DNA of 24,395 bases from an uncultured Eubacteriales bacterium (GTDB taxonomy: Bacteria > Bacillota_A > Clostridia > Lachnospirales > Lachnospiraceae), in NCBI GenBank assembly GCA_900321365.1, contig ONVT01000074.1, positions 1 through 24,395 of the forward strand, given 5' to 3'. The first letter of the stretch is position 1, and each line of letters starts with the position of its first letter. Both the position numbers and the translations under genes were made by a program. Below the pieces are notes generated by a model. That model had not been told where the DNA came from. It worked only from the letters and a program-made list of their open reading frames with translations, and did no database searches. Below are positions 6,010 through 23,881 of the stretch, one piece after another.

Positions 6010-6031
6010 AAGGAAACGAAAGGATCGGACT

Positions 6032-6793
6032 GTGGTACACTTTGTAGGCGCCGGGAGCGGCGCGCAGGATCTGATTACGATCCGGGGAAAGAGACTTCTG
6101 GAAGAGGCAGACATTGTCATCTACGCTGGAAGCCTGGTGAATCCGGTACTCCTCGGATACGCGAAGGAGGATGCCCGGATCTACAACTCTGCGCGCATGA
6201 CACTGGAGCAGGTGACGGATGTCATGCGAAAAAACCGGGATGATCGGATTGTGCGCCTTCACACCGGCGACCCGTCGCTGTACGGGGCGGTCCGGGAACA
6301 GATGGATATACTTGAAAAGGAGCAGATTCCGTATGACGTGACGCCGGGCGTCTCCAGCTTTCTTGCCGCTGCGGCCGCCCTTCGGGAAGAGTACACGCTT
6401 CCCGGCGTCTCCCAGACCGTGATCCTCACAAGGATGGAGGGGAGGACCCCGGTTCCGGAGAGGGAGTCTCTTGCGAAGCTTGCAGTGCATGGAGCGTCGA
6501 TGGTGATCTTCCTGTCCGCGTCGATGACGGCCGGTGTTCAGGAGGCGCTGCTTCAGGGTGCGTACACGAAAAAGACGCCTGCGGCGATCGTCTGCAGAAC
6601 CGGCTGGCCCCGGGAGAAGCTCATCCGCTGCACGGTGGGGACGCTCCATGAAAATGCGCAGAAGGAGGGAATCACGAAAACGGCGCTGATTCTTGTCGGA
6701 GACTTTCTGAAGAGGGAAGCGGGCGCGGAAAGAAGCCGCCTGTATGATCCGTCCTTTACGACCGGATACCGGAAGGGGAACAATGAAACATAA
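6032..6793 (+). CDS. cbiF: Cobalt-precorrin-4 C11-methyltransferase
   Basis: A 253-residue tetrapyrrole methylase that transfers a methyl group from S-adenosylmethionine to C11 of cobalt-precorrin-4. It starts at GTG 6032 with AAAGGA eight bases upstream. The protein opens with VHFVGAGSGAQDLITIRG, then YAGSLVNPVLL, the glycine-rich HTGDPSLYGA (residues 77-86) and TPGVSSF (104-110), ending near VGDFLKREAG. All of these match CbiF/CobM. Length is normal. Its last four codons overlap the cbiG start by 11 bases, which implies translational coupling. With CbiG and CbiD on either side it forms the middle section of the anaerobic ring-contraction pathway. The alternative name is CobM. Confidence 0.96.
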   Translation: MVHFVGAGSGAQDLITIRGKRLLEEADIVIYAGSLVNPVLLGYAKEDARIYNSARMTLEQVTDVMRKNRDDRIVRLHTGDPSLYGAVREQMDILEKEQIPYDVTPGVSSFLAAAAALREEYTLPGVSQTVILTRMEGRTPVPERESLAKLAVHGASMVIFLSASMTAGVQEALLQGAYTKKTPAAIVCRTGWPREKLIRCTVGTLHENAQKEGITKTALILVGDFLKREAGAERSRLYDPSFTTGYRKGNNET

Positions 6794-7946: not shown

Positions 7947-8710
7947 AGAGGGGAAAGGTATATCTGGTCGGCATCGGTCCCGGCGGGATGGAGGACATGA
8001 CCGGGAACGCCCTGAGGGCGATCCAAAGCTGTGAGGTTCTGTGCGGATATACCGTCTATATCGACCTGATCCAGTCCCGGATACCGGGACTGGATCACAA
8101 AAGGATCCTGACAACGCCGATGCACCATGAGACGCAGCGGTGCCAGGCAGCGCTTGAGGAGGCACACCGGGGCAGGGATGTCGCGCTGGTCTGCGGCGGG
8201 GATGCCGGAATCTACTCGATGGCCGGCCCGGTTCTGGAGATGCTCGAATCCTTCCCGGATGTCGGGACGGAGGTCATCCCCGGGATCACGGCGGCAGTAT
8301 CAGGCGCGGCTCTCCTCGGCGCTCCGCTGATGAATGATTTCTGTGTCATTTCCCTGTCGGACCTGCTGACCGGATGGGATGTGATTGAGAAGCGGATCCG
8401 CTCAGCCGCGGACGGGGACTTCGTGACGGTCATCTACAATCCCATGTCGAAGAAGAGGACATGGCAGCTGAAACGCTGCTGCGGCATATTCCTGGAATAC
8501 CGGAGCGCCGATACCCCGTGCGGCTGGGTGAGGAACATCGGCCGCAGGGGACAGGAGAAGAAGCTCCTGACACTGGAGCAGCTTCAGGAGGAAACGGTGG
8601 ATATGTTCACCACGGTGTACATCGGAAACAGCACCACGCATTTTGCCGGGGGATATATGGTCACGCCGAGGGGATACGACAGCCTGGAGTTACGTGAAGA
8701 TGGACGCTGA
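7937..8710 (+). CDS. cobJ: Precorrin-3B C17-methyltransferase (CbiH/CobJ)
   Basis: A 257-residue tetrapyrrole methylase that methylates C17 and drives ring contraction, producing cobalt-precorrin-4 in the anaerobic route. I start at ATG 7937, with AGGAG six bases upstream; the frame is open to 7496 but that part overlies cbiG. The protein opens with KVYLVGIGPGGMEDMT, then CGYTVYIDLI, CGGDAGIYSMAGPVLEM and VIPGITAAVSGAALLGAPL, followed by ISLSDLLTGWDVIEKRI and TVIYNPMSKKR, all typical of CobJ/CbiH. The stop overlaps the next start by 11 bases. In an anaerobic pathway the name cbiH is equally appropriate. Confidence 0.95.
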   Translation: MGVKRGKVYLVGIGPGGMEDMTGNALRAIQSCEVLCGYTVYIDLIQSRIPGLDHKRILTTPMHHETQRCQAALEEAHRGRDVALVCGGDAGIYSMAGPVLEMLESFPDVGTEVIPGITAAVSGAALLGAPLMNDFCVISLSDLLTGWDVIEKRIRSAADGDFVTVIYNPMSKKRTWQLKRCCGIFLEYRSADTPCGWVRNIGRRGQEKKLLTLEQLQEETVDMFTTVYIGNSTTHFAGGYMVTPRGYDSLELREDGR

Positions 8711-9569
8711 AAGAAGGATCCTTCTGTTCGGAGGCACGACAGAAGGAAGAGAGATGGCCGGGGAGCTGCCTGCCCTGGGGTTTAAGGTTACGGTCTGTGT
8801 GGCGACGAAGACGGGAGAGGAGTACCTGAGGGGAATTCCGGGACTGGACATCCATACGGGAAGGATGGATGAAGACCGGATGGAGGATCTCATGATGGAG
8901 GGCTTTCTTCTTTGTATCGACGCGACACATCCCTACGCTCTGCAGGCCAGCGCTTCGATCCGGAAAGCTGCCGGACGCACAGGCCTTCCTGTCTTCAGGC
9001 TCACCCGCCGGGAGATGTCGTTGGAGGAGCTGGAGCGCAGCGTTTCGGCACTGGTGAGGGAATATGCTGATGCGCATCCCGAAGAGCCCTGCAGCGCATC
9101 AGATCCCGGAAGGCGTTTTCTCCGGTTTTGTGACAGCGCGGACCAGGCCTGCGGGATCCTTCTTCGTGCTGCGGACCTGACCGGAACCCGGGACGGGATT
9201 CTCCTGACAACCGGAGCAAAGGAGGCATCCTGCTTCGCCCCTCTTGTAAGGGAAAAGAGAGACCGGGTTTTCATCCGGGTTCTTCCCTCTGAGGAGAGTA
9301 TCAGCAGGTGCCTTAAGGCCGGGTTCGCTGAGGATCACATCCTCACCGGAAGGGGCCCTTTTTGTGTGGAAGAGAACGTCAGGATATTCCGGACGTACGG
9401 GATCCGCATCCTCGTGACAAAAGACGGCGGGCCGGAGGGGGGATTTCCCGAGAAGCTTGCTGCCGCAGCCCTGTGCCGGGGCTGTGTGATTGTGATCCGC
9501 AGGCCGAAGGAAGAGGGAATGTCCTCAGAGGAGATCCTGAGGATCTGTCAGTCAAAAACTGTACATTGA
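8700..9569 (+). CDS. cobK: Precorrin-6A reductase (CbiJ/CobK)
   Basis: A 289-residue reductase that reduces the macrocycle of (cobalt-)precorrin-6A using a nicotinamide cofactor. The Rossmann start ILLFGGTTEGREMA is followed by TGRMDEDRM, CIDATHPYALQAS, LTRRE, LLTTGAKE, RVFIRVLPS and ITGRGPF-like ILTGRGPFCVEEN, ending with TKDGGPEGGFPEKL and VIRRPKEEG, the recognised CobK series. The ATG at 8700 begins where homology begins. A GTG at 8694 is a possible alternative and is closer to GGAG (8686-8689). The middle region (about residues 105-150) is a little longer than usual. It overlaps cobJ by 11 bases and is followed by a 108-base gap before the exporter gene. Confidence 0.93.
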   Translation: MDAERRILLFGGTTEGREMAGELPALGFKVTVCVATKTGEEYLRGIPGLDIHTGRMDEDRMEDLMMEGFLLCIDATHPYALQASASIRKAAGRTGLPVFRLTRREMSLEELERSVSALVREYADAHPEEPCSASDPGRRFLRFCDSADQACGILLRAADLTGTRDGILLTTGAKEASCFAPLVREKRDRVFIRVLPSEESISRCLKAGFAEDHILTGRGPFCVEENVRIFRTYGIRILVTKDGGPEGGFPEKLAAAALCRGCVIVIRRPKEEGMSSEEILRICQSKTVH

Positions 9570-9581
9570 TAGCCTGTACAG
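9559..9581. promoter_or_regulatory. Inverted repeat after cobK
   Basis: CTGTACA (9559-9565) and TGTACAG (9575-9581) form a perfect 7-base inverted repeat with a 9-base spacer, starting just before the cobK stop and lying about 100 bases before the exporter start. No T-run follows, so it is not an intrinsic terminator. It could be an operator or chance; I see no clear promoter hexamers around it. Confidence 0.3.
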
Positions 9582-9677
9582 ATTGCGCAGGATTTTCATT
9601 CGATTGTGCCAGACAAAAAGCCGCGCACAGCGGACTATGTAAGGCACTGCCGCAGGATCCTGACGGAAGGGGTTGAG

Positions 9678-11390
9678 ATGATAAGAACACTTCTTCGATA
9701 CTTCAAACCACATATGAAGCTGTTTCTCCTTGACATGGCCTGCGCGGTGACAGCGTCCGCGATCGACCTGGCGTTTCCGCTGGTTTCCAGGTACGCGATG
9801 TACACACTCCTGCCGGACCGCCTGTTCGGCGCGTTTTTTGCCCTGATGGCGGCGGTCGTCCTGTTTTATGTCCTGCGGTCAGTCTGTTACTATGTCATGA
9901 CCTTCTGGGGACACACCTTCGGCATCCGTGTGGAGACGGACATCCGGGCTGACCTGTTCCGCCACCTCCAGGAGTTGGACTTTGAATTCTATGACCAGAT
10001 GCGCACGGGAAACCTGATGAGCCGCCTGACCGGGGATCTGTTCGAGGTCACGGAGCTGGCGCACCACGGGCCGGAGGACCTCCTGATCTCCCTGCTGACG
10101 GTGGCAGGTTCGCTGGCGATCATGTTTACCATTGAATGGCGCCTGGCACTGGTGGTAGCGCTGCTGATCCCTGTATTCCTGATGATCACGATGCTCCAGC
10201 GCCGCAATATGTCGCGCACGTCCACGAATGTCAAGAAGAAGCTGGCCGGAATCAACACGGACATCGAGACCAGCCTGTCAGGAATGAAAACCTCCAAGGC
10301 CTTCGCGAATGAGAATGTGGACAACGCACGTTTTACCGACGCGAACACACAGTATCGCGGAGCAAAAAAAGACTTCTACCGGGCGATGGGAATCTTTCAG
10401 GCATCCCAGGAGTTTTTCATGGGGATCCTCCCGGCGGTGGTGATTGCAGTTGGGGGCTTCCTGATGATGAACGGACGGATGAACTACATCGACCTGATTA
10501 CGTTCACGCTGTTCGTCGGGACATTTGTCTCCCCGATCCGCAAGATGGCGCAGTTTGCGGAGATCTTCGAAAGCGGAATGGCAGGTCTGAAGCGGTTCGA
10601 AGAGGTGATGGCAATGCAGCCGAGCGTGAAGGAGAAGCCGGATGCCGTGTGCCTTACGGTTACCCGGGGCCGCGTCGACATCGATCATGTCAGCTTCTCC
10701 TACATCAACAATCCTGAGGTGCTGCATGATATCGACCTTCACGCGGAGGGAGGCGAGATGATTGCGGTGGTCGGCGCGTCCGGCGGAGGGAAGACAACGC
10801 TCTGTCATCTGATCCCCCGGTTTTATGACGTGGTGTCAGGATCGATCAGGATCGACGGGTATGATATCCGTGACGTGACGAAGAGGTCACTACGCAGCAG
10901 CATCGGAATCGTACAGCAGGAGGTGTTTATTTTCGCGGATACGATCCGCGAGAATATCCGGTACGGAAGACCGGAGGCATCCGACGAAGAGGTGGAGGAG
11001 GCTGCCAGGAGAGCAAAGATCTATGAGGACATTCTCCGCATGCCGGACGGATTCGACACCTATGTCGGAGAGCGCGGGACAAGGCTGTCGGGCGGACAGC
11101 GCCAGAGAGTCTCGATCGCGCGCATTTTCCTGAAGGATCCGGCTGTGCTGATTCTTGACGAGGCGACCTCGGCGCTGGATACGATCACCGAAGAACAGAT
11201 TCAGAGGAGCTTTGATGAGCTGATGAAGGACAGGACGTCCTTTGTCATCGCGCACCGGCTTTCCACTGTGCGCGGTGCGGACCGGATCGCGGTGATCGAG
11301 GAGGGGCGGATCGAAGAACTCGGGACGCATGAGGAACTGCTTGAGGCGGGCGGAGAGTACGCGCGCCTGTATGAAGCGCAGGAACTATAA
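9678..11390 (+). CDS. ABC exporter half-transporter (MsbA/LmrA type)
   Basis: A 570-residue export-type half-transporter expected to work as a homodimer in the membrane. I start at ATG 9678, with GGAAGGGG five bases upstream. Residues 1-320 are the transmembrane domain with about six helices (FLLDMACAVTASAIDLAFPL, FFALMAAVVLFYVLRS and, later, LLISLLTVAGSLAIMF). The ATPase follows: Walker A GASGGGKT (366-373), signature LSGGQ (470-474), Walker B LILDEA with catalytic Glu495, and switch His in VIAHRLS. No C39 peptidase domain is present. It sits between cobK and cbiET, only 11 bases before the latter, so it is co-expressed with corrin synthesis. Export of a corrinoid intermediate, or protection from one, would be speculation. 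Confidence 0.93.
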   Translation: MIRTLLRYFKPHMKLFLLDMACAVTASAIDLAFPLVSRYAMYTLLPDRLFGAFFALMAAVVLFYVLRSVCYYVMTFWGHTFGIRVETDIRADLFRHLQELDFEFYDQMRTGNLMSRLTGDLFEVTELAHHGPEDLLISLLTVAGSLAIMFTIEWRLALVVALLIPVFLMITMLQRRNMSRTSTNVKKKLAGINTDIETSLSGMKTSKAFANENVDNARFTDANTQYRGAKKDFYRAMGIFQASQEFFMGILPAVVIAVGGFLMMNGRMNYIDLITFTLFVGTFVSPIRKMAQFAEIFESGMAGLKRFEEVMAMQPSVKEKPDAVCLTVTRGRVDIDHVSFSYINNPEVLHDIDLHAEGGEMIAVVGASGGGKTTLCHLIPRFYDVVSGSIRIDGYDIRDVTKRSLRSSIGIVQQEVFIFADTIRENIRYGRPEASDEEVEEAARRAKIYEDILRMPDGFDTYVGERGTRLSGGQRQRVSIARIFLKDPAVLILDEATSALDTITEEQIQRSFDELMKDRTSFVIAHRLSTVRGADRIAVIEEGRIEELGTHEELLEAGGEYARLYEAQEL

Positions 11391-11401
11391 GGAGAAGAAA
11401 A

Positions 11402-12784
11402 GTGAGAATTGATCTTGCGGGATTCGGGCCGGGATCGGCTCAGAAGACGACGCAGCAGGTTATGACAGCGCTGGGAGAGGCGGATCTGATCATAACGTCC
11501 TCAAGGCTTGCCGATGCTCTCTGGGGCGGGGCTGACACGGACTCCGGCTCCCTGATCGATGCCTCAGTCCCGTACTGGAACGTGATGCAGGATGAGGACA
11601 GGTTCGGTCTTTCATCCGGATTGAGGATCCTGGTTGAAACAGACAGCGGAAAGATTCTGCGGATCCTGGAAAATGAGCCTTTCGAGAGGGCGGTGTGCCT
11701 GTTTGGCGGGGACACCAGCTTTTACTCCGGCGCCGTTCCTCTGCTCGCACTGATCCGAAAGTCCCGCGCTCTTGAGGAGAAAAAGGCCAGGGTCCGGGTT
11801 CTGCCCGGAGTCTCGAGCCTGTCGGAGACATGCGCGCGACTGGGAGTCCCCTTTTCCCAGGTGGAAGTGTTCTCGGCGCATGGGAGGGATGTGGATCCTG
11901 TCAGGGCGGTCATGAACGGAAAGAAGAGCTTCTTTCTCACCGGCGGGGAAAATGACCCTGCCGCGCTCTGTGCCAGGCTGACCCGTGCCGGACTGGGGGA
12001 TCTGGAGGTAACCATCCTGGAGAGGCTGTCCCTGGGCGGGGAGCGCATACGGTCGATGAGCGCGAAGGAAGCAGCCGGCCTGAAGACCGATCCCCTGTCC
12101 GTCCTTCTTGTGGAGAGCGCTCCCGTGTCAGAGGAGCTTCGAAGGGGGATCCCGGGAATACCGGATGAATCCTTTGTGAGAGGAAGAGTTCCCATGACGA
12201 AGCGCCTTGTCAGGGTATGCGCCCTGTCCCTGCTGAACCCTTCAAAAGAGGATCTGTGCTGGGATCTGGGCGCGGGAACGGGGAGCATGTCAATCGAGCT
12301 TTCCGCCCGCTGCCGGCGGGTTGTCAGCGTGGAGAGGAATCCGGAAGCACTCCTGCTGATGGAGGAGAACCGGAAGAAATTCGGAGCCTGGAACATGGAG
12401 ATCGTGGAGGGAGTGATCCCGCAGATCCTGCCTGAGCTTCCCGCGCCGGACAGGATCTTCGTGGGAGGCGGCGGAGGATGGATCCGCCGGATACTGGGAC
12501 AGCTGAAGGAGCAGCACGTCCCGGTCTGCGCGCCGGCTGTCACACTGGAGACGCTGCAGGAGGCCAGATGTGCACTGGAAGAGAATGGATATGAGACACA
12601 GGTGGTCCAGGTCGCTGTCACCGACGTGATAAAGCGGGGGGAGCATCACATGATGGACGCACAGAATCCGGTGTTCCTGATTGCGGGATATCCGGCACAG
12701 CGCATCCCGGAAGAAGACATGCCGGCAGCAGAAGATCGTTCCGCCGCAGGCCAGACTGCGCTGTGGAATGCGGAGAAGGAATAG
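11402..12784 (+). CDS. cobL: Bifunctional CbiE-CbiT (CobL) methyltransferase and decarboxylase
   Basis: A 460-residue fusion that methylates precorrin-7 at C5 and C15 and removes the C12 acetate carboxyl. Start GTG 11402 follows AAGGAG seven bases upstream, 11 bases after the exporter stop. The CbiE half (about 1-205) opens with IDLAGFGPGSAQKTT and has LFGGDTSFYSGAV and VLPGVSSLSETCARLG, ending with VEVFSAHGRD and SFFLTGGENDP. The CbiT half begins near GRVPMTKRLVR and carries the SAM-binding motif WDLGAGTGSMSIEL (287-300), then VSVERNPEAL and DRIFVGGGGGW. Both halves look complete. A 35-residue Glu/Ala-rich tail follows the CbiT fold. In many bacteria cbiE and cbiT are separate genes; the fusion is common in clostridia. 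Confidence 0.95.
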   Translation: MRIDLAGFGPGSAQKTTQQVMTALGEADLIITSSRLADALWGGADTDSGSLIDASVPYWNVMQDEDRFGLSSGLRILVETDSGKILRILENEPFERAVCLFGGDTSFYSGAVPLLALIRKSRALEEKKARVRVLPGVSSLSETCARLGVPFSQVEVFSAHGRDVDPVRAVMNGKKSFFLTGGENDPAALCARLTRAGLGDLEVTILERLSLGGERIRSMSAKEAAGLKTDPLSVLLVESAPVSEELRRGIPGIPDESFVRGRVPMTKRLVRVCALSLLNPSKEDLCWDLGAGTGSMSIELSARCRRVVSVERNPEALLLMEENRKKFGAWNMEIVEGVIPQILPELPAPDRIFVGGGGGWIRRILGQLKEQHVPVCAPAVTLETLQEARCALEENGYETQVVQVAVTDVIKRGEHHMMDAQNPVFLIAGYPAQRIPEEDMPAAEDRSAAGQTALWNAEKE

Positions 12785-12809
12785 AACAGGTCCTGAGTCC
12801 TGAGGCAGT

Positions 12810-14987
12810 ATGGGTGGAATTAATTTCAAGGAAGTAAACAGTCTGATCGCTCTGGTCCAGGCCCTGGATGAGGCGCTGTCCGGCATGCAGGCAGATGCGG
12901 TATCCAGGGAGGAGGAGGTGCGTCTGGCATCGGAGTCCTGGATGGAGGAGGCGTCTGCCAGGTCACTGGAAGAAATTCCTGTGGAAGAGCTTAAGAAGTC
13001 AAAGGCAGGGATCCGGATCAATGCGCTGCAGGAGGCCGGATATCGGAACCTGAAGGACCTTTCGGACGCGGATGAGAGCAGCCTTCTGGCCGTGGACGGG
13101 ATCGGCGGGAAACAGACGGCCGCCATACGGTCAATTCTCGCTCAGTTCAGGCAGCAGTTCGCGCTGAGGAAGACAATCCGGCTTTCGCCTGACGACGTAT
13201 CGGAATCCAGTCTCCGGCTGATCCGCGCGCTTGCAATCTTCCGGATCAGCCGGCAGGTTCTGCTGGATGTATCCTCCGTCCAGACACAGTTCCATGACCT
13301 CTCCCGGGAGATCATCAACCGAATCAGGGTACGCAGTTTTTTTAAATGGCTGTTTGCCGGAAGAGAGATCCGCAATGAAACGGTATCGGCGATTGAGGAT
13401 CTGACCAGATTCACCGCCTCGCCGCTCTTTGAGCGCGCGGCCGCCCTCCAGGGCCGGTACGCCGGACTCTCCTCTCTGAGCATCGAGGAGGCGAAGAGAG
13501 ACTTTGAGCGCAGCAGCGCCCAGTATTATGTCCTTCTGGAAAAAGTCACCGGGAAAGGTTTCCGGTCCTCTGCGTTCGACAGCAGTCTTCCCGAAGATCT
13601 TGCCGCCTCGATCGACGCGTTCCCCCTGAAGCGGGGGCTTTTTACGGGCGGCCTGCGCTCCTACCAGGAATTCGGGGTGAAGTATATCCTCCATCAGAGG
13701 AGGGTGCTCCTCGGGGATGACATGGGACTGGGCAAGACGGTTCAGGCAATTGCCGCGATCTCACACCTGCATGAGGAGGATGGGCGGGGGCACAGTCTCA
13801 TCATCTGCCCGGCCGGCGTTCTGATCAACTGGTGCAGGGAGATCAGAAGGTTCAGCAGCATGAATGCCTGGCTGCTCCACGGGAAAAAGCTGGAAGAAGA
13901 ATTCAGCCGGTGGACGGACCTGGGGGGCATCGCGGTAACCAGCTTTGAGATCATGAACCGCATCGTCGAGAGGATTGACAACCGGATGAGGATCCTGATG
14001 CTGGTCATTGACGAAGCGCATTATATCAAGAATCCGAACGCTCTGCGCACCCGCTCTGTCCGAATGCTTCAGGAGGAGGCCGCTCATATTCTTCTCATGA
14101 CAGGAACACCGCTGGAAAACAGGGTGGATGAGATGTGCAGCCTGATTGACTTTGTCCGTCCCGACCTGTCCGGGCAGGTAAGGCGCGCTGTGTCTTACAG
14201 CCGGACGCAGGAGTTTCGGGAAATGATCTCGCCGGTCTATCTGAGGCGCCGGAGGGACGAGGTCCTCCGGGAGCTGCCGCCGGTCGAGGTGAGAGAAGAA
14301 TGGTGCGGCATGAGCGAGGATGACCGGAGGGCGTATGCGGAGCAGGTCGGCGCCGGAAGCTTCATGGGCGCAAGACGTGTCGGCTTCCTGCAGGAGGACC
14401 TCTCCACATCCTCCAAGGCGCAGCGGCTGAAGGAACTGTGCATGGAGGCGGAAGACGCCGGAAGAAAGGCCATTGTCTATTCTTTCTTCCTGGAGACGAT
14501 CCGGAAAGCGGAGTCACTTCTGAAGGAGCGGTGCGCGGGGGTGATCACCGGAAGCACGGATGCTTCCCGGAGACAGGAAATCGTCGACCGGTTTGAGAGT
14601 TCGCCCGGGGGAAGCGTACTGGTCTGCCAGGTGCAGGCAGGCGGAACCGGGCTGAATATCCAGGCCGCCAGCATTGTGATCTTCTGCGAACCGCAGATCA
14701 AGCCCTCCCTGATCCATCAGTCCGTCGCGAGGGCATGGCGGATGGGGCAGGTGAGAAATGTGCTGGTCTGCCATCTGCTCTGTGAGGATACAGTCGATGA
14801 AGCCGTTATGGAGAGGATCAGACGAAAGCAGCTCCAGTTCGATCTCTACGCGGAGGAATCCGCCGCCGCGAAGGCCGCGGAGGGGCTGGTCGACAAAGAG
14901 TGGATCCGGGATTTCATGGAAAAGGAGCACATGCGGTATCTGCCTGCGGTGATTGTGCCGGATCCGGAAATGCTGCAGGAAACCTGA
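12810..14987 (+). CDS. SNF2-family DEAD/DEAH-box helicase
   Basis: A 725-residue Swi2/Snf2-type ATPase that would translocate along double-stranded DNA in the cytoplasm. The N-terminal part includes a helix-hairpin-helix-like stretch (LKDLSDADESSLLAVDGIGGKQTAAI, split here as two motifs around residues 71-98). The ATPase core follows: motif I GDDMGLGKT (302-310), motif II DEAH (401-404), motif III LLMTGTPLEN, motif V QAGGTGLNIQAAS and motif VI QSVARAWRMGQ (637-647). The start ATG follows CTGAGGCAGT. It lies 25 bases after cbiET and 91 bases before cbiA, in the same direction, so it is probably in the cobalamin transcript. No nuclease or methylase partner is nearby. Its role here is unknown; bacterial relatives act in transcription recycling, repair or defence. 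Confidence 0.93.
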   Translation: MGGINFKEVNSLIALVQALDEALSGMQADAVSREEEVRLASESWMEEASARSLEEIPVEELKKSKAGIRINALQEAGYRNLKDLSDADESSLLAVDGIGGKQTAAIRSILAQFRQQFALRKTIRLSPDDVSESSLRLIRALAIFRISRQVLLDVSSVQTQFHDLSREIINRIRVRSFFKWLFAGREIRNETVSAIEDLTRFTASPLFERAAALQGRYAGLSSLSIEEAKRDFERSSAQYYVLLEKVTGKGFRSSAFDSSLPEDLAASIDAFPLKRGLFTGGLRSYQEFGVKYILHQRRVLLGDDMGLGKTVQAIAAISHLHEEDGRGHSLIICPAGVLINWCREIRRFSSMNAWLLHGKKLEEEFSRWTDLGGIAVTSFEIMNRIVERIDNRMRILMLVIDEAHYIKNPNALRTRSVRMLQEEAAHILLMTGTPLENRVDEMCSLIDFVRPDLSGQVRRAVSYSRTQEFREMISPVYLRRRRDEVLRELPPVEVREEWCGMSEDDRRAYAEQVGAGSFMGARRVGFLQEDLSTSSKAQRLKELCMEAEDAGRKAIVYSFFLETIRKAESLLKERCAGVITGSTDASRRQEIVDRFESSPGGSVLVCQVQAGGTGLNIQAASIVIFCEPQIKPSLIHQSVARAWRMGQVRNVLVCHLLCEDTVDEAVMERIRRKQLQFDLYAEESAAAKAAEGLVDKEWIRDFMEKEHMRYLPAVIVPDPEMLQET

Positions 14988-15078
14988 TTCACACATCCCT
15001 CAGACTGCCGGAGGCAGCAGGACGAGGTCATCCGGGGCGGTCTGAAAGTGGGGAACAGCGGATGAGGAGGAGGCCGTG

Positions 15079-16689
15079 ATGAGAGCCGGAAGGCTGATGG
15101 TCAGCGCCGCGGGAAGCGGCCATGGAAAGAGCGTTGTCACAATGGGGCTCCTTCAGGCGATGAAGGAGCGGGGGATCGCGCTCCAAAGCTTCAAGTGCGG
15201 CCCGGACTATATCGATCCCGGTTTCCATGAGCGTGTGCTGGGAGTGCCCTGCCGGAACCTCGACACCTTTTTAATGGGTGAGGAGGATGTGCTGGAAGAA
15301 GTATCAGACGCGGAAAAGGCCGGTCTTTTTGCGCTTGCCGAGGGCGCCATGGGGCTATTTGACGGACTTGGCGGAGGAGGTGCCCACAGTGCCTTCAGCA
15401 CCGCCCTCCTGTGCGGCATGCCGGTGGTGGCGGTTCTGGACGCGGGTCGGGAAGAAGACTGCGCAAAACAGCTGAAAAGGCTTCTGGAGCGTGATACGGA
15501 AGGGGCCATACGGGGATTCCTCATCAACCGGTGCCGGGAGGAGGAATATCCGTCTGTCATACAGAGCATACGGGACACCCTTTCCCTGAACAGTCCGGCA
15601 GAAATGACCTTCCCTTTTTCGGGCGGCGGGAATAAAACCCGGAGGATGCAGGACCGCATCCATGAGGAATGCAGGGAGAAAGGAACCGGTGCCGGATATG
15701 TCTGTGCGTGCGGATTCCTGCCTCCCCTGCCTGAGGCGGTGTTTCCTTCCAGACACCTGGGGCTGGTGGGAGCATCGGAGACAGAGGGTTTTGCCCGGAG
15801 AATCATGACGATTGCGAATGAACTGGAGCGCGCAGGATGCGTTGACGCGGTCCTGGCTCTGGGGCAGAAGGAAGTTTTTCCTTACGGAAAAACTCTGAAG
15901 CCCCTCGAAGCCGGGGCGGGCTCCCCTGATCTAAGATCAGGGGCAGGCAGGAAAATGCGGGAGGCTACGGCTCCTGCAGCGGTACATTGCGATATGCGGG
16001 AGAATACAGCTCCTGCATCGGCACATTACGTCCCGGAAGCGGTGTCGGAGAAAGAGAAGCGCTGCCGGATCGCGGTTGCCAGGGATCACGCATTTTCCTT
16101 CGTATACCAGAGATCGCTGGAAAACCTGGAGAGGGCCGGCGCACAGCTTGTCTTTTTCTCACCGTTGGATGATCCCTGTCTTCCGGAGGGGACGGACGGG
16201 CTCTACCTGCCCGGCGGGTATCCGGAACTGTATGCCCGGGACCTGGAGGAAAACCGGTCCATGCGCATTTCGGTGCGGGATGCGGTCATTGGCGGGATGC
16301 CGACCGTGGCGGAGTGCGGCGGCTTCCTCTATCTGGGAGAGGAGCTGTGCGGGGAGGACGGCCGTCCCTGCAAGATGGCAGGGGTCCTGAGAGGCAGGGC
16401 GTCGAAGAAGGACCATCTGGTGCGCTTCGGGTACCTGGAGCTTATGCAGGAGCGAGGAGACAGCCTTCTCTTCCGGGAGGGGGAGACGGTACATGCCCAT
16501 GAGTTCCATTACTGGGATACGACCGTTCCGGGCGATGATCTTCTCGCTCTTAAACCGTCGAAGAACCGGGAGTGGAGGTGCGGATTCACAGGGCCGAAGC
16601 TGTATGCGGCATTTCCTCACCTCTATCTGAGCGCACAGAGGGCAGAGCGGTTTGTGGGAGCGTGCCTGGCACCAATTCTATTGCGATGA
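15079..16689 (+). CDS. cbiA: Cobyrinate a,c-diamide synthase (CbiA/CobB)
   Basis: A 536-residue, ATP- and glutamine-dependent amidase acting on side chains a and c of cobyrinate. GTG ATG stand in tandem at 15076; I choose the ATG at 15079 because GAGGAGGAGG lies six bases before it. The ATPase half opens with VSAAGSGHGKSVVTMGLL, then FKCGPDYIDPGFH and LAEGAMGLFDGLGG. The amidotransferase half has LYLPGGYPELYA, the nucleophile in AECGGFLYLG (Cys413) and HAHEFHYWD with His474 or His477. Typical length is about 450-460. The surplus is an insert at roughly residues 274-320 containing a palindrome and a 13-residue tandem repeat. The last eight residues (CLAPILLR) and the stop are encoded by a long hairpin. 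Confidence 0.94.
   Translation: MRAGRLMVSAAGSGHGKSVVTMGLLQAMKERGIALQSFKCGPDYIDPGFHERVLGVPCRNLDTFLMGEEDVLEEVSDAEKAGLFALAEGAMGLFDGLGGGGAHSAFSTALLCGMPVVAVLDAGREEDCAKQLKRLLERDTEGAIRGFLINRCREEEYPSVIQSIRDTLSLNSPAEMTFPFSGGGNKTRRMQDRIHEECREKGTGAGYVCACGFLPPLPEAVFPSRHLGLVGASETEGFARRIMTIANELERAGCVDAVLALGQKEVFPYGKTLKPLEAGAGSPDLRSGAGRKMREATAPAAVHCDMRENTAPASAHYVPEAVSEKEKRCRIAVARDHAFSFVYQRSLENLERAGAQLVFFSPLDDPCLPEGTDGLYLPGGYPELYARDLEENRSMRISVRDAVIGGMPTVAECGGFLYLGEELCGEDGRPCKMAGVLRGRASKKDHLVRFGYLELMQERGDSLLFREGETVHAHEFHYWDTTVPGDDLLALKPSKNREWRCGFTGPKLYAAFPHLYLSAQRAERFVGACLAPILLR
15923..15943. repeat. Perfect palindrome inside cbiA
   Basis: CCCCTGATCT and AGATCAGGGG form two perfect 10-base arms around a single A. 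It lies in the low-complexity insert between the two CbiA halves, 11 bases before the tandem repeat. As a transcript it cannot form a full hairpin with a one-base loop, though a four- to five-base loop would leave a strong stem. It may be a recombination or insertion footprint. Confidence 0.8.
15955..16032 (+). repeat. Two 39-base tandem repeats inside cbiA
   Basis: Units 15955-15993 and 15994-16032 are aligned direct repeats sharing ATGCGGGAG, ACAGCTCCTGCA-like and GCACATT-like blocks. They encode MREATAPAAVHCD and MRENTAPASAHYV, two 13-residue units in the linker between the ATPase and amidotransferase halves. Frame is preserved. Confidence 0.9.
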
Positions 16690-16815: not shown

Positions 16816-17106
16816 TTATCTCAGGAACGCGCTGTTCGCCCAGCCCCAGTTGCCGTTGAACATTACATAAGTGTAGGAGCAGGGTACACCGTTCAGGCCG
16901 GTTCCTCTTGTGGTTGAGCCGTAGGTGAAGACCTCATATCCCGGATACAGCTTTGCGATCTCATGATACTGATCCCAGACCGGCTGCGGTCTCAATGCAA
17001 GATATCCGCCGCCGCAGTCACCGACTGTCATGTAGAATCCGGCTCCGCCGTATCCACCATTCACATCCTCAAGTTCCTGTCCATCAATAATGATTTTGTC
17101 TGCCAT
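16816..17106 (-). CDS. Double-glycine-leader peptide with SH3-like domain
   Basis: A 96-residue protein starting MADKIIIDGQELEDVNGG. The ELEDVNGG ending matches the consensus of double-glycine leaders cleaved by C39-peptidase exporters, predicting a mature protein from Tyr19. The rest resembles a bacterial SH3-like domain: GGGYLALRPQPVWDQYHEI, then LYPGYEVFTYG and a closing NGNWGWANSAFL, equivalent to the usual NGxxGWVxSxYL. Two cysteines (in GDCGGGY and GVPCSY) could pair. AAAGGAGA eight bases before the ATG supports the start, and a strong terminator follows. No processing exporter is adjacent; the ABC exporter upstream lacks a C39 domain. Secreted SH3-like domains often bind cell-wall glycans, so a wall-binding effector or bacteriocin-like role is possible but unproven. 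Confidence 0.8.
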   Translation of the reverse strand: MADKIIIDGQELEDVNGGYGGAGFYMTVGDCGGGYLALRPQPVWDQYHEIAKLYPGYEVFTYGSTTRGTGLNGVPCSYTYVMFNGNWGWANSAFLR

Positions 17107-18192: not shown

Positions 18193-18282
18193 GAAACCAT
18201 CATATTGAATTATCCCGGGCAGCAGCCTGAAGAGCCAGGAAACCGGGTGAAAGATAAAAAGAATGATCAGGAGGACAACAAA

Positions 18283-21012
18283 ATGAAAAAAAGAGGACTG
18301 GCATATATACTGTCAGCGGCTATGATGCTGTCTTTTGCCGCGCCGGCTGCGGCTGGAGCGCAGGAAACAACGCAGGAAGTGCAGACTGAAGTGCAGACCG
18401 AAGTGCAGGATGATGTGGACAAAGTCTGGGAGACAGACATCAGGATGTCGCTGACGCGCGAGAGTGCGCTTCGTCAGGAAGCAGGCATGAGTGTTCAGGA
18501 ATGGGACAACGCTGTTGCCGCGAAAAAACTCGAAGGCAGGGACGCGCCTCTGACGAGGGAGGATGTGACGGACGCACAGGTCTTTGAGAAGGACGGAGTA
18601 GTCTGTTCCATAGATCATGCGGACGCACTTGGCGAGGTGAAGGACGCACTTGATGCATATCGGGCTGCGTACAGCGCCGCGGCTTTGATGGGTGGAAATG
18701 AGCTTGCGGATCTTCGTCTGTGGCATCAGATGGATATCGATGATGTCAGGTTCTATTCCTTCCAGCAGGTATCCGACAGCACGATGGTGATGGGAAGCAC
18801 GCTGAAGCTTGCGGTCAAAGACGGCAAGGTTCTGGCGGTGTTCAGCAGCCTGGATCCGGAAACGGGAAAAGAAGAGAAACTTGTGACGCAGTCTGAGGCG
18901 GAGGATATTGTTCTCGATGCGCTTGAGGCGGCGGGAGAGAAGGCAGTGGTTTTTCCGGAATACACGGACCGTGTGCGATATATGCCGACTGTGCTGTCTG
19001 ACCTGAATCTGGACGAAGCGGACGATGATCCGGTACCGGAGGACCTGCGCTGGGTGGTCTACAGTGAGAATGAGGGCGATGATGAATATCCGTACACCGC
19101 GCACTATCTGGATCTTGCCGGCAATTATCTTGAGAGCCTTGACGTGAAGGAGCCGGGAGATGATGAAGCCATGTGCGGTTTCCGGAAGCAGAAGGTTTTT
19201 GACGGCATGACGGCAGATACCTGGACGGGAGAGATTCAGGGGGATGATGATAAGGTTAAGACCGTGACCCTTCCAATTATGCGGGATGAGGAGGGCCGTC
19301 TGTATCTGGGTGATGTGAAGCGCCGGATTGCCGTGGCGGACTTTGCGAAGGCGGTTTATGATGACGCCCATGAGCTGGTGCTTGTTCAGGCTGATGACAA
19401 TGCTGTATTCGACAACGAAGACCTGTACATGTATTACAACTATCTCAATGCCAGGGATTTCTACGCTGATATGGGCTGGATCAGTCCCGACGGGGAAAGC
19501 AGTGACGTGATCATCCTGAAGAATCTGTGTACCAGCGATGGGACGCCTTTTGAGAATGCCTGCAGCATCGGCATGATCCAGGGCTGGCAGATGTTTGGCT
19601 ACACCGCATATAACCGGTTCGGAGAGCCCCTGAAGCTTGGGCACGGACAGGATGTCATGGCACATGAGTACACACACACATTCACCTCTACCCTTATGAA
19701 CAGCAACCTCTATGAGAATGACCAGGGTGCCATAAATGAGGCGATGTCCGACATTCTGGGGAATCTTGCAGAGCTCATTCTTGGAGAGACAGATGACACG
19801 CGCTGGCTCCTGGGAGAGAACACGGCTGATACGGTTCGCAGCATGAGTGATCCTGCGGCTTATCAGCAGCCGTCCTATGTATGGGACAAATACTACGGGC
19901 AGGAAACCGATATCCCGGGCGACTGCAATGACCGCGGCGGCGTGCACTGCAATTCTTCGCTGTTGAATTACATTGCGGCGAGACTTTGCCTGGAATATGG
20001 AATGGAGTATGAAGACGCAGTCCGGTTCTGGATTATGACAGCCGGCGGCCTGACACCGAAGACAGATTATCCGCAGATCTGCGCCGTGATGAACTGGGCG
20101 ATGGATCAGAGCGGTAATGAGGCACAGGAAGGCAACCTGAACCAGCTGATCAAAGAAGAACATCTGGACCGGGAGGAGATTCCTGAAAAGATGCCTTACA
20201 ACAGAAAGATTGTAACCCTGCAGCTTCCGGATACCGAAACCTTCGAAGACGAGAACTGGATGATGATGACCGTCCAGCTGAACACGGAAACGGTTCAGAA
20301 CGCTGCCGTTGCCATCGTGAAGATGGTGATACAGCTCATTAAGGACGGGGAGGACACGGAAAGGATTGGCCTGATTCTGTCGGAACTGCTTGAGAGCATT
20401 CACCTGGACGGCAACAAGATCCACCTGGAAATGAAGGATGACAAGGATGCTGTGATGGAGGCGATCATAGAAACGGCGACCTCCACGCTTTCCAGATTAG
20501 TGGAACAGGGGTTAGCCTGGAGAAAGGACATAGGAGATGACATTCTCTTTGTCACGGACAACAATCCTACTGCGTATATGCTCCTTAACATTACAGAATC
20601 CGGAACAAAGGTGAACGGGGCAGTGGTTTTGATTGGAGAACGCTGGGTTGACCTGAGTCCGTTCCTGGAACTTGGAGAAGAATTGGTTAGAATGGGAACC
20701 GGCGCAGAGGAAACCGGGGCAGAGACGAAATCGGTCCTTGATCTGATCGGCAGCCTTACGCTTGAGCAGTTCGGAACCCTGATCGATCTGGCGGGAGCGA
20801 TCAGAGACGTAATCTATACGGACGAGGATGAAGAACAGAGCGCCGAAGAGAGCAACCTTGCCGGTGACATTCTGGAGCTTGCAGCGGCACTCCTTGAGTA
20901 CAGGAGTGCAGATGAAGAAACGAAGAAAGAAGGGCTGCTGTTTCCGACCAGGACGCAGGAGCTTCCGACGGAAGGGCTTGAGAAGGTTAAGCTGGTGAAG
21001 AATGGAGATTAA
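18283..21012 (+). CDS. Secreted M4 (thermolysin-family) metallopeptidase
   Basis: A 909-residue secreted zinc endopeptidase. AGGAGG eight bases before ATG 18283 and a clear signal peptide (MKKRGLAYILSAAMMLSFAA, ending AAAGA) fix the start; the upstream in-frame ATG at 18205 is rejected. A (EVQT)3 repeat follows at residues 32-43, then a propeptide (FTP/PepSY-like, about 50-340). The catalytic domain carries HEYTH (461-465), the third zinc ligand Glu486 in INEAMSD, and the active-site His555 in GGVHCNSSLLN. These three elements in order are diagnostic of M4. Beyond about residue 640 comes a 270-residue region, helical and acidic, that I do not recognise and that most M4 enzymes lack. The gene ends at a terminator about 50 bases downstream. 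Confidence 0.93.
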   Translation: MKKRGLAYILSAAMMLSFAAPAAAGAQETTQEVQTEVQTEVQDDVDKVWETDIRMSLTRESALRQEAGMSVQEWDNAVAAKKLEGRDAPLTREDVTDAQVFEKDGVVCSIDHADALGEVKDALDAYRAAYSAAALMGGNELADLRLWHQMDIDDVRFYSFQQVSDSTMVMGSTLKLAVKDGKVLAVFSSLDPETGKEEKLVTQSEAEDIVLDALEAAGEKAVVFPEYTDRVRYMPTVLSDLNLDEADDDPVPEDLRWVVYSENEGDDEYPYTAHYLDLAGNYLESLDVKEPGDDEAMCGFRKQKVFDGMTADTWTGEIQGDDDKVKTVTLPIMRDEEGRLYLGDVKRRIAVADFAKAVYDDAHELVLVQADDNAVFDNEDLYMYYNYLNARDFYADMGWISPDGESSDVIILKNLCTSDGTPFENACSIGMIQGWQMFGYTAYNRFGEPLKLGHGQDVMAHEYTHTFTSTLMNSNLYENDQGAINEAMSDILGNLAELILGETDDTRWLLGENTADTVRSMSDPAAYQQPSYVWDKYYGQETDIPGDCNDRGGVHCNSSLLNYIAARLCLEYGMEYEDAVRFWIMTAGGLTPKTDYPQICAVMNWAMDQSGNEAQEGNLNQLIKEEHLDREEIPEKMPYNRKIVTLQLPDTETFEDENWMMMTVQLNTETVQNAAVAIVKMVIQLIKDGEDTERIGLILSELLESIHLDGNKIHLEMKDDKDAVMEAIIETATSTLSRLVEQGLAWRKDIGDDILFVTDNNPTAYMLLNITESGTKVNGAVVLIGERWVDLSPFLELGEELVRMGTGAEETGAETKSVLDLIGSLTLEQFGTLIDLAGAIRDVIYTDEDEEQSAEESNLAGDILELAAALLEYRSADEETKKEGLLFPTRTQELPTEGLEKVKLVKNGD

Positions 21013-21098: not shown

Positions 21099-21104
21099 AA
21101 ACCT

Positions 21105-21125
21105 GTTCACAGTGACAGGCACCCT
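21105..21125. repeat. GTTCACAGTGACAGGC repeat, copy 1
   Basis: GTTCACAGTGACAGGC followed by ACCCT. The same sequence occurs at 23861-23881 with one change (20 of 21 bases identical). With the preceding CCT it is an imperfect palindrome (CCTG-T-TCAC-A-GTGA-CAGG). It sits at the 3' end of a minus-strand gene, touching its stop codon, and looks like an interspersed intergenic repeat of REP type. Confidence 0.65.
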
Positions 21126-22365
21126 AAGAATTTTGCTTAGCCCCTACGAGAATGCGCATCTTGTGCACATCGGTTTTAAAGAAGTCTTTTGCGGAGCACC
21201 CTGCGCGTCCCGAAGAAGCGCAGGCACAGGCGCATGCGCAGGAGGAAGCGCAGGCACAGGCGCATGAAGAAGCGCAGGATGACCCTCCGGATGAGCGGTG
21301 TGAGGATGATCCGCCTGATGAATGAGGCCGACGGACCGGCACGTTTACGACATTGACGTGGATATAGGTGTTGCCGGAACTGCCATAGCGGAATGTGCCG
21401 TTCTTTGAATACTTTTCGGGTTCTTCGATCTCGCTCTCTTTGAGCACTTCCCTGCTCTTGATCATACTGCGTCCGCAGTACGGGCATTTGTCCTTTCCGT
21501 CTTCACGGACGGCGCCGCAACTGGGACAGTTCGGGTAGTATTCGATTTTTGTTCTTGTTATCTTTTTCTTTGTTGCCTTGCCTGAGCCGAAACCGAAGCC
21601 GTTGAATATCCATATGATGAATTTTCCGATCAGGAAGAATGGGGCGAACAGTACCCCCAGGCCCAGAATGCCGCAGATGACATCGTAGATGTCGATCGAA
21701 TCGCCGGAGCTTTGGCTGTTCTGGCTGCTCTCCCCGGATGATTGATGGTCTGACACAAATCCGAAGGCGTCGTTTGGGTAGGTGACGGACATTGTATACC
21801 GGCCACCCGGTGAAAGAGACGTGTGGAAGACAAGGTATCCGTCTTCCTGCTGGCAGTCAGGCTGCCAGGCGCTGGATTGATCTTCTCTCCAGCGTATCGT
21901 CAGGCTGTCGACATCCATTCCGTCGAACCATGCGGGAGTGAATGTATACACTGTTTCACCTTCTGTCCATTTGTCGATCTGGTACATATGATCCTGGGTC
22001 ATGGAGAAATCAAGGCTGACCGTTTCACCTTCTGAGTAGGCGCGGTCAAGATAGATGGCAAGCTTGTTTCCCTTATCCTCTATGTGGTCTATGGTATCGG
22101 ACAATGGCTTCAGATTATCATGGTATTTGTTGGGCACTCCGAGGTCTATCCATTCCAGCATGCCGATGGAATCGTCGAGCACTTTCCAGTCGATGTGGTA
22201 AACCATATCAAGTGATGCGTCATCATTGACATCAACGGTAATAGAATAATCAATGATCTCATCTGTCGCCTTTGCGGCCGCAGATATTGCCGGCACAGCC
22301 AGGCTGAGCAGTATTGCCGCGGCGAACAGGATGGATCGGACATGTTTTCTCATTCTTTCATTCAT
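21124..22365 (-). CDS. DUF2207-like membrane protein with zinc ribbon and Cys-Ala tail
   Basis: A 413-residue surface protein. The chosen ATG (22365) follows GAGGAGGT seven bases upstream and shares its A with the stop of the radical SAM gene (TGATG); an ATG 24 bases earlier is possible. Residues about 8-30 are a signal segment. The extracytoplasmic beta-rich domain (IIDYSITVDVNDDASLDM to about 200) resembles the DUF2207/YciQ N-terminus. A Ser-rich linker and a membrane segment (about 225-250, GILGLGVLFAPFFLIGKFII) follow. Then comes a zinc ribbon, CPSC (280-283) and CPYC (294-297). The tail, after Ser/Gly/His-rich sequence, is CASSCACACASSCACACACA followed by SSGRAGC: nine cysteines between 364 and 390. 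The final 22 residues (from SAKDFFK) are ordinary. Its function is unknown, and the tail is a likely substrate of the enzyme next door. Confidence 0.85.
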   Translation of the reverse strand: MNERMRKHVRSILFAAAILLSLAVPAISAAAKATDEIIDYSITVDVNDDASLDMVYHIDWKVLDDSIGMLEWIDLGVPNKYHDNLKPLSDTIDHIEDKGNKLAIYLDRAYSEGETVSLDFSMTQDHMYQIDKWTEGETVYTFTPAWFDGMDVDSLTIRWREDQSSAWQPDCQQEDGYLVFHTSLSPGGRYTMSVTYPNDAFGFVSDHQSSGESSQNSQSSGDSIDIYDVICGILGLGVLFAPFFLIGKFIIWIFNGFGFGSGKATKKKITRTKIEYYPNCPSCGAVREDGKDKCPYCGRSMIKSREVLKESEIEEPEKYSKNGTFRYGSSGNTYIHVNVVNVPVRRPHSSGGSSSHRSSGGSSCASSCACACASSCACACACASSGRAGCSAKDFFKTDVHKMRILVGAKQNS

Positions 22366-23762
22366 CAGCAATACCTCCTCAGGGGGCATGTGCCTGTCAT
22401 CTCAGCCGCGAAATCCCTTTGTCTTACACATCTTTCCGACTCCCAGACAAAACTCCAGTCATCTTTCAGCATGTTTCCGAGTGGTTCGTCAGAAAGAGCG
22501 CTCTGGCACGGGACGATATTGCCGCCCGGCGTGAGGGCCATATTGGAAAGGCAGGCTCCGCACGTAGGTGACGGGATGTTCAGCTCGTCAAAGACTTCCT
22601 GTCCGATCCAGCCCGGTGATGTAAATGCAATCTCCATGCCGTTATCATGGCAGTAGGCTACCGCTTCGCGCAGGATGCTCTCAAGCTCTTCTCCCGTCAG
22701 CTGCAGGCGTTCCGAATCCTTTTCCGCCGCGTTTCCTGTTGTGATCAGGCCGGAACAGGTCACGTAGATCACTCCCTTCTCATGCAGGAATTCGAGGGTT
22801 TTTACATAGTCCCTGTTCAGCGTGCAAAGTGGCGTATTGATGCTGACACTGAGTCCGGCTTCTAAAGCGTTCTCTATACCGCTTACCGTGTTGCTGTACT
22901 GTTCTGCCCCCACAAGCGTGTTATGCGTCTCCTGATCTGTTGAATAGAAAGTGATCTGGACGCTGTCAAGTTCGGCTTCGCGCAGCTGCCGGCAATAGTC
23001 TTTCGTCAGTCTGGTACCGTTTGTGTTCAGGCGGGAAATAAACCAGCGCGCGTATCTGATCAGTTCGAAGAGATCGTCCCGCATCGTAGGCTCTCCACCC
23101 GTGAATGTCACCTGTGGAATACCTGCTTCCCGGCATTTGTCCAGGATCAGCTTCCAGTCTTTCGTCGGAAGCTCTTCCTCATCCGACAGTTTCTGTCCGG
23201 CGGCATAGCAATGTATACATTTCTGGTTGCAGTGCCATTTTCCGTTTTTTGTCATGGCGCTTACCATCAGATCCATCCGGTGCGGCGCGCTCATGTATTC
23301 GGCATAATCCCCGATGGCCATATAGTGTACATCGGTCGTCACCTCTTCCCGGTATGCGATTTGCCGCAGCGTCTGATAGATAGTCCGTATGTCCCTCCTG
23401 ATCCGTTTTCCGGACAGGACCGGCACGATCTGCCTGACATTCCCGGCAGTCTGATCCAGGATATGTTGTATATCCGTTTCATCGATCTGCCTGCCGTCAT
23501 ATTTGTTCGTCTCGCGGATCATCTCCGCCAGCATGATCGCCCAAATAAAGTTTACCGGCACGATATCTGTGCCGTTGATAATCGCGACACTCGGGTTAAA
23601 TGCGCCTTCTTCGGGCTTTGGCGGGATCAGATGAATACGGATGGCCCCCGGTCCGTTGGGATTCAGGGTAGTGTGGAGGACTTCGTTGAATGACGATGCC
23701 ATGTATGCGTTAATCTGTTTGACTGTTTTTGTTTTTCTGAAAATCTTTGGTACAGGGATCAT
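22365..23762 (-). CDS. Radical SAM protein with SPASM-like C-terminus, candidate peptide maturase
   Basis: A 465-residue radical S-adenosylmethionine enzyme. The cluster-binding motif is C-NQK-C-IH-C (Cys178, Cys182, Cys185), followed by VTFTGGEPTMRDDL (SAM-binding GGEP) and RLNTNGTRLT. The C-terminal region has CGACLSNMALTPGGNIVPC, then a Cys in ESERC and CPLRRYC at the end, a SPASM-like auxiliary cluster domain. Residues about 60-140 are a separate helical region (FIWAIMLAEMIRETNKYDG, DIQHILDQTAGNVRQIV) that could be a PqqD-like recognition element. AAAGGAGG upstream supports ATG 23762. The 123-base region before it holds TATGAT-like sequence but no clear -35. Overlap with the Cys-tail protein gene means coupled translation. 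SPASM enzymes typically modify peptides or proteins, often forming thioether links from cysteines. Confidence 0.9.
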   Translation of the reverse strand: MIPVPKIFRKTKTVKQINAYMASSFNEVLHTTLNPNGPGAIRIHLIPPKPEEGAFNPSVAIINGTDIVPVNFIWAIMLAEMIRETNKYDGRQIDETDIQHILDQTAGNVRQIVPVLSGKRIRRDIRTIYQTLRQIAYREEVTTDVHYMAIGDYAEYMSAPHRMDLMVSAMTKNGKWHCNQKCIHCYAAGQKLSDEEELPTKDWKLILDKCREAGIPQVTFTGGEPTMRDDLFELIRYARWFISRLNTNGTRLTKDYCRQLREAELDSVQITFYSTDQETHNTLVGAEQYSNTVSGIENALEAGLSVSINTPLCTLNRDYVKTLEFLHEKGVIYVTCSGLITTGNAAEKDSERLQLTGEELESILREAVAYCHDNGMEIAFTSPGWIGQEVFDELNIPSPTCGACLSNMALTPGGNIVPCQSALSDEPLGNMLKDDWSFVWESERCVRQRDFAAEMTGTCPLRRYC

Positions 23763-23860
23763 AAGCGTTCCTCCTTTCTCCCATCATATAGACAGAATTG
23801 TCAGCAGGGGGAACTGTATCGCGTATCACTCTTTCCCCGGACGGGTAAATTTCTATTCCG

Positions 23861-23881
23861 TTCACAGTGACAGGCCCCCTC
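23861..23881. repeat. GTTCACAGTGACAGGC repeat, copy 2
   Basis: GTTCACAGTGACAGGC followed by CCCCT, 20 of 21 bases identical to the copy at 21105-21125 and in the same orientation. It also lies directly 3' of a minus-strand gene (five bases from the stop at 23886). The two copies flank the radical SAM and Cys-tail gene pair. Confidence 0.65.

Follow-up and report, generated by a model that had tools for sequence, protein, structure and literature searches.

The question raised by the locus described here is whether a radical S-adenosylmethionine (SAM) enzyme acts on the cysteine-rich tail of the membrane protein encoded beside it. Both genes are located near the end of contig ONVT01000074.1 (assembly GCA_900321365.1), a stretch of 24,395 nucleotides from an uncultured Eubacteriales bacterium that is hereafter referred to as the window. 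Across distant lineages, the enzyme and the Cys-Ala membrane protein occur as a pair of adjacent genes, and the coupling of enzyme and tail is strongly supported by the sequence comparisons. That the enzyme modifies the tail, by whatever bond, is considered quite probable, an estimate that also covers bonds other than thioethers; thioethers as the bond made are given an even chance. The elements of the pair are as follows.

22365..23762, minus strand: enzyme of 465 residues with RRE-like (recognition element of ribosomally synthesized and post-translationally modified peptides, or RiPPs), radical SAM, and reduced SPASM regions
21124..22365, minus strand: membrane protein of 413 residues with a Cys-Ala tail, the proposed substrate
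22363..22367, minus strand: TGATG stop-start overlap (enzyme TGA 22367-22365, tail-protein ATG 22365-22363, one base in common)
21196..21276, minus strand: Cys-Ala tail, residues 364-390, nine cysteines
21178..21210, minus strand: GRAGCSAKDFF follower straight after the Cys-Ala run

An earlier note on this DNA had reported both the TGATG overlap between the radical SAM stop and the membrane-protein start and the presence of nine cysteines between residues 364 and 390. Both were confirmed, the former by reading the sequence and the latter by counting the cysteines, which in the 413-residue protein occupy positions 171, 231, 280, 283, 294, 297, 364, 368, 370, 372, 376, 378, 380, 382, and 390. 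An AGGAGG sequence lies within the last codons of the enzyme gene and ends 8 bases before the tail-protein ATG. The start that yields 413 residues is a choice; use of the ATG eight codons upstream gives 421.

Loci were fetched on the basis of the tail protein alone, of which at least 76 exist, and 72 of the 76 contain a match to the enzyme, some of these matches being pieces at contig edges or split genes. The enzyme was not seen in L005, L039, and L047, where the upstream sequence is missing at a contig edge, nor in L041, where the tail gene is 5'-truncated and tblastn finds no enzyme in 16.5 kb. The enzyme gene comes first in 66 of the 72 loci and second in six. Among 65 enzyme-first, plus-strand loci, the enzyme stop forms TGATG in eight and ATGA in 25, or 33 of the 65 in all. 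Two tail proteins occur near a single enzyme in five loci (L017, L019, L030, L049, and L084).

Three genome samples were also searched, each of which includes one known center genome, with the best 5 to 8 candidates per genome being scored. The family sample was built around G001, the genome that contains L004 and is recorded as Lachnospiraceae, and consisted of 250 genomes of its family. The enzyme is present in 22 of these at E-values of 7.3e-167 or better, and in all 22 the tail pattern CACACACA lies on the contig and strand of the enzyme, 801-1311 bases downstream. The pattern was matched in 24 of the 250 genomes, and in the two further cases it falls in a 57-residue open reading frame (ORF) opposite a longer ORF (G351) or in no ORF of at least 40 residues (G501); the enzyme was not found in the pattern-match regions of either genome. 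The class sample comprised 291 genomes from the class of G001. The full-length enzyme occurs in five, all of which have a tail match, three on the contig of the enzyme and two on other contigs. In G249 and G210, where enzyme and tail are on separate contigs, each enzyme adjoins a cut piece of a tail protein. A 17-base CACACA pattern was matched in 24 of the 291 genomes: 18 had regions examined, G001 is the sample center, and the match in G142 is on the enzyme's contig. Matches outside of the examined regions occur in G279 (two sites), G287, G293, and G170, with extra sites in G043, G071, and G098. In the regions examined, the enzyme-less genomes of this sample contain no ORF of at least 50 residues with both CACACA and GRAGC. 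The phylum sample, namely 201 genomes of the phylum to which the Anaerolineaceae bin G011 belongs, was searched with the enzyme alone; 12 genomes have it at E-values of 5.1e-120 or better, and in 12 of 12 its neighbor ends in CACACAGGGR followed by the stop codon.

Pairings of 72/76, 22/22, and 12/12 led to rejection of the idea that the tail is a chance neighbor of a radical SAM gene. The earlier note, which had proposed the coupling, held that it would fail if tail homologues usually lacked the enzyme; with the 5/5 of the class sample included, the opposite was observed.

The pair is carried by records named Krumholzibacteriia, Aminicenantes, Chitinivibrionia, Zixiibacteriota, Anaerolineaceae, and Acidobacteriota, and by others named Methanomassiliicoccus, Eggerthellaceae, and Acholeplasmatales; these are metagenome bins, and many of the non-Bacillota ones may be misbinned. 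In a 43-row enzyme tree, to which a long-branch warning applies, the 32 enzymes with Cys-Ala tails group together (96/86) apart from a sister clade (100/99). No third pathway gene was found in more than eight of the 72 loci within ∼6-7 kb by an all-against-all BLAST of ORFs of at least 100 residues, many of the contigs ending early. The most recurrent were ATP-binding cassette (ABC) ATPases, in 8 of 72; two clusters represented by ORFs that lie over the pair on the opposite strand were set aside in this count. To that extent, the comparison gave no recurrent candidate for a leader protease or exporter of the sort expected in sactipeptide or ranthipeptide clusters beyond these ATPases. One scan of a viral collection with P0110 as the query gave no relative. 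Beside the Anaerolineaceae pair at L073, positions 11202-12371 and 12314-13138 encode a second radical SAM-like protein and a methyltransferase. Matches to the former begin inside the models, and it is perhaps a pseudo-enzyme. A second enzyme-like ORF was seen in five of the 12 phylum-sample loci, each of which spans only ∼4.3 kb.

A search of 5.8 billion proteins with the tail protein yielded 2246 relatives at E-values up to 1e-3 among 7998 candidates scored. GRAGC follows the Cys-Ala run in 100 of the 120 homologues listed; the other 20 include many that are short, bear a partial label, or change into another frame in the tail. Those 100 contain 44 unique tails in which, the last cysteine of each being omitted, 312 of 340 cysteines precede an alanine and 22 precede a valine; phenylalanine is also found in place of alanine. 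The gap from one cysteine to the next is two residues in 204 of 340 cases and eight residues in 44, the latter being the distance from the run to the GRAGC cysteine. An alignment of 26 rows, hand-picked among full-length members that have tails, shows no variation in CACACAC or GRAGC at a mean column identity of 46%. Both the cysteine and the alanine codons vary inside the window's tail, and they differ between genomes as well, on which grounds slippage of a DNA repeat was rejected. Given this codon variation and the 100 homologues with GRAGC, sequence comparison argues firmly that the tail is the result of neither chance nor slippage. Other domains and the gene order change, but the Cys-Ala run is kept. 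In the loci from about L040 onward, the stretch matched to the window protein mostly ends ahead of the zinc ribbon, with query residues covered up to ∼167-274. A CPxC motif lies behind the tail in L067-L070, and in L071-L074, L076, and the 12 phylum-sample loci the tails end at GGGR without a follower of the GRAGCSAKDFF type.

A related sister enzyme was observed in ten of the 291 class-sample genomes (E-values of 2.2e-55 to 5.7e-70). All ten of the corresponding loci, L097-L106, adjoin a membrane protein ending in (ACHS/ACHD)n-ACVSGGAR or -GGAK, although in L106 the tail is in a different frame from the rest of the protein. A third ORF of 328-365 residues follows in nine of the ten and in the tenth continues the frame of the enzyme; that of L097, the one tested, matched nothing in Pfam or NCBIfam. 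A protein search with one sister tail protein found 21 relatives, 12 with the repeat and nine, several of them short, without it. The protein database assigns PF27846 to several of these relatives. The enzyme profile at E-values up to 1e-20 matches 54 of the 291 genomes, including the five full-length and ten sister cases. Two more distant radical SAM genes that were examined, L107 and L108, have no Cys tail nearby. Because all ten sister loci have such tails and these two have none, the sequences indicate that tails with regularly spaced cysteines and an end of Gly-Gly-x-Arg or the like go with this enzyme branch and not with radical SAM enzymes at large.

These tails bear upon the proposal that the Cys-Ala run is an unmodified, metallothionein-like segment for binding metals or Fe-S clusters, with the enzyme acting elsewhere in the process. 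It would suit the density of CxC in the Cys-Ala tails, with their preponderance of two-residue gaps, and the zinc ribbon ahead of the tail in the window family. The sister (ACHS)n tails, however, are devoid of CxC, and the constant RRE-radical SAM partner would be left unexplained, there being no other common gene found. We regard this proposal as unlikely.

What the enzyme might do was addressed through its regions, which are as follows.

23289..23762, minus strand: N-terminal RRE-like (PqqD-like) domain, approximately residues 1-158, from the model and a profile-profile link
23208..23231, minus strand: CNQKCIHC, the CxxxCxxC motif for the SAM-binding [4Fe-4S] cluster, residues 178-185
22368..22562, minus strand: reduced SPASM region with Cys 401, Cys 404, Cys 419, Cys 445, Cys 459, and Cys 465, without the CX2CX5C loop

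The 465-residue protein belongs to the radical SAM superfamily (Pfam Radical_SAM, E-value of 6.3e-22), and all three cysteines of the CxxxCxxC motif are invariant in 26 of 26 rows of the enzyme alignment. Its SPASM score of 20.0 bits lies just short of the 21.5-bit Pfam cut-off, and a SPASM match at E-values up to 0.1 is found in 26 of 26 family members. The CX2CX5C loop, missing in the window-type enzymes, is kept by the distant members of the alignment. In the predicted structure, four strands followed by three helices (residues 29-136) form an RRE-like fold. The window enzyme itself has no direct match to Pfam PqqD, and such a match at E-values up to 0.1 is limited to four of 26 family members. 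Yet hhalign connects its N-terminal domain with those of the distant members at 95.7%, and one of the latter, L073, passes the Pfam PqqD cut-off. The alignment of SuiB to the window enzyme begins at residue 23-43. Through the model and the profile-profile link, rather than a direct Pfam match, the enzyme is thus predicted to possess the PqqD-like RRE of an RRE-dependent RiPP maturase.

The nearest solved folds are those of SkfB, a thioether maker, and SuiB. Of the NCBIfam models, 59 match the enzyme at E-values up to 1; among the 25 listed, none is above its curated cut-off, and the best score is 115.7 against a cut-off of 500 bits. The equivalogs compared were NirJ2, MoaA, AhbD, HxsC, and others. 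The chemistry of this enzyme and tail is undescribed by the family libraries searched. The fold alone leaves the reaction open, for the match lists hold SuiB, anSME, the epimerase EpeE, and SkfB together, and the enzyme might therefore modify the tail by another bond, for example through epimerization, carbon-carbon links, or cysteine oxidation. Only cysteine and a small next residue, mostly alanine, recur in the tails, however, and the Lys-Trp pair and the sulfatase motif used by other reactions are not evident in those read. A bond of this kind is rated as a minority possibility, ahead of the metal-binding segment.

The location of the tail relative to the enzyme depends upon the architecture of the membrane protein, the features of which are as follows.

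22273..22365, minus strand: putative signal peptide, approximately residues 1-31, from a helix at residues 2-22 and a hydropathy peak rather than a signal-peptide program
21766..22263, minus strand: β-sandwich ectodomain, residues 35-200, from the model (block predicted local distance difference test values of 91-98)
21598..21690, minus strand: single transmembrane helix, residues 226-256, from the model and hydropathy
21475..21528, minus strand: four-Cys zinc ribbon, residues 280-297

With a signal peptide and then a single membrane helix, the tail would come to lie in the cytosol. The tail is therefore predicted to be cytosolic with the β-sandwich outside, which does not support the term "surface protein" of the earlier note as far as the tail is concerned. 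In 17 relatives, two main hydropathy peaks precede the tail as in the window, to which L072 and L099 add further weak ones. As lysines and arginines right after the second peak are few in several relatives, the window protein included, this topology is to be read as a prediction. A Foldseek search with the membrane protein gave only distant β-sandwich matches, resembling M1 aminopeptidase domains with template modeling scores near 0.3. The tail region of the model is of low confidence and is probably disordered. The zinc ribbon that had been noted earlier holds in the window protein to the extent of its four cysteines at 280-297, but its score of 19.5 falls below the 25-bit Pfam cut-off and the ribbon is not family-wide; in the 26-row alignment, three of the four cysteines, each with the following glycine, are invariant. 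The suggested likeness to DUF2207 was not borne out: PF09972 has no match up to an E-value of 1 in the window protein, and the sister tail protein of L097 scores 19.5 bits against a cut-off of 24.4. TIGR04222 is likewise not among the NCBIfam matches of the window protein up to an E-value of 1.

A tail predicted to lie on the enzyme's side of the membrane would also be expected if the membrane protein were not the substrate of the enzyme but its anchor or partner, such as a donor of electrons or clusters by way of the tail cysteines, and the pairing should then be equally strict. The occurrence of two tail proteins per enzyme in five loci and the variable repeat length fit a substrate better, and this role is deemed the most improbable of those considered.

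The best reading of the sequences is that the pair is a two-gene system for protein modification, in which the RRE guides a radical modification of the predicted cytosolic tail, probably to Cys-Ala thioethers. The tail is taken as the substrate because it is the most constant part of the protein, because it is predicted to lie on the enzyme's side, and because the components of a peptide maturase are present in the enzyme. After insertion of the membrane protein, which would leave the β-sandwich outside and the tail in the cytosol, the protein would be held near its tail by the RRE-like domain. The 5'-deoxyadenosyl radical derived from SAM would then abstract a hydrogen from tail residues, most likely from Cα of the alanine after a cysteine, and a cysteine sulfur held at an auxiliary cluster would close the thioether, the process being repeated along the run. 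Linkage to the next residue would give a six-membered ring, and larger rings would form with residues farther away. A Cys-to-Ala thioether is favored since alanine succeeds nearly every cysteine, and since SkfB, according to excerpts of PMC8326336, forms a Cα thioether and accepts alanine. Valine and phenylalanine, which occur in place of alanine, also bear a Cα hydrogen. Weighing against this assignment is SuiB, which is equally near by fold and performs other chemistry. The product most likely remains on the membrane protein, for no further conserved gene was found nearby; a metal site and a rigid appendage are guesses at the protein's role.

In the HxsA/HxsB/HxsC His-Xaa-Ser repeat system, too, radical SAM enzymes occur next to a protein of short tandem repeats. 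The HxsC model scores 59.3 bits with the window enzyme against a cut-off of 267.9, and the Hxs repeat is not Cys-Ala. The closest published analogue of the pair is the TIGR04222/MNIO system, which, in the portions of PMC12452194 consulted, similarly combines a membrane protein having a Ser/Gly-rich, Cys-bearing, disordered C-terminus with an adjacent metalloenzyme as its proposed modifier, the modification likewise being only proposed. That enzyme is an MNIO rather than a radical SAM protein, its tail is assigned to the periplasm whereas the one described here is predicted to be cytosolic, and one third of the TIGR04222 genomes are without MNIO genes (PMC12452194), whereas every genome with a full-length enzyme in our three samples has a tail. 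The sactisynthase SkfB (PDB 6efn) is ∼20% identical to the window enzyme, but it acts on a peptide destined to be a killing factor instead of on a membrane protein (excerpts of PMC8326336). CteB, the SCIFF ranthipeptide maturase (PDB 5wgg; sequence match with an E-value of 3.1e-11), shares a Cys-rich substrate, an RRE, and a thioether, the last only inferred here. Its SPASM domain has two [4Fe-4S] clusters (excerpts of PMC8326336), in contrast to the reduced one of the window enzyme, and the SCIFF class was named for six cysteines in forty-five residues (PMC7470986, in part). QhpD, as described in excerpts of PMC8326336, also makes thioethers within a protein rather than a released peptide, as presumed here; its links join Cys to Asp/Glu in quinohemoprotein amine dehydrogenase, and the comparison is confined to this described activity. 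The partner is not a short precursor peptide but a 413-residue membrane protein, and the bond is only predicted; for these reasons the pair is filed, on sequence, as a form of RRE-dependent radical SAM modification and not as a sactipeptide or ranthipeptide system. The open-license PubMed Central literature, to which our survey was confined, contained no paper found on this radical SAM-tail pair.

The best-known cases of radical SAM chemistry on peptides involve small ones, which came to light through short ORFs near the enzyme. Here a conserved membrane protein is the proposed substrate, by way of its cytosolic end, and searches for short ORFs near enzymes would miss such a case. The pair recurs over several bacterial phyla and in archaeal bins. 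If the tail is modified, this would be a new place and purpose for the chemistry, the two types of tail sequence would make the substrate rules directly testable, and a first handle would be gained on a large membrane protein family of little known function. More broadly, it is an evenly poised proposal that there exists a widespread class of "RiPP-like" tails that stay anchored in the membrane and are never released, in which dedicated RRE-radical SAM enzymes cross-link cytosolic Cys repeats, (CA)n-GGG-R and (ACHS)n-ACVSGGA-R, possibly into a ladder of Cys/Ala thioethers that gives a rigid or metal-binding appendage.

Just outside both ends of the cassette in the window is a 17-base direct repeat with one mismatch (21104-21120 and 23859-23875, plus strand), which may mark a cassette boundary or be a dispersed repeat. 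It had no match in 100 shuffles, and its 15-base core occurs in none of 122 other loci. Converging on the tail gene is an ORF for a thermolysin-like M4 metalloprotease of 935 residues (18205-21012, plus strand). A 96-residue ORF (16816-17106, minus strand) that has no Pfam match begins with MADKIIIDGQELEDVNGGYGG, which looks like the double-glycine leader of a bacteriocin-like peptide. Cobalamin biosynthesis genes (CbiD, a tetrapyrrole methylase, and a CobB/CobQ-like protein) occupy 4705-16689 on the plus strand, broken by genes for an SNF2 helicase and an ABC transporter.
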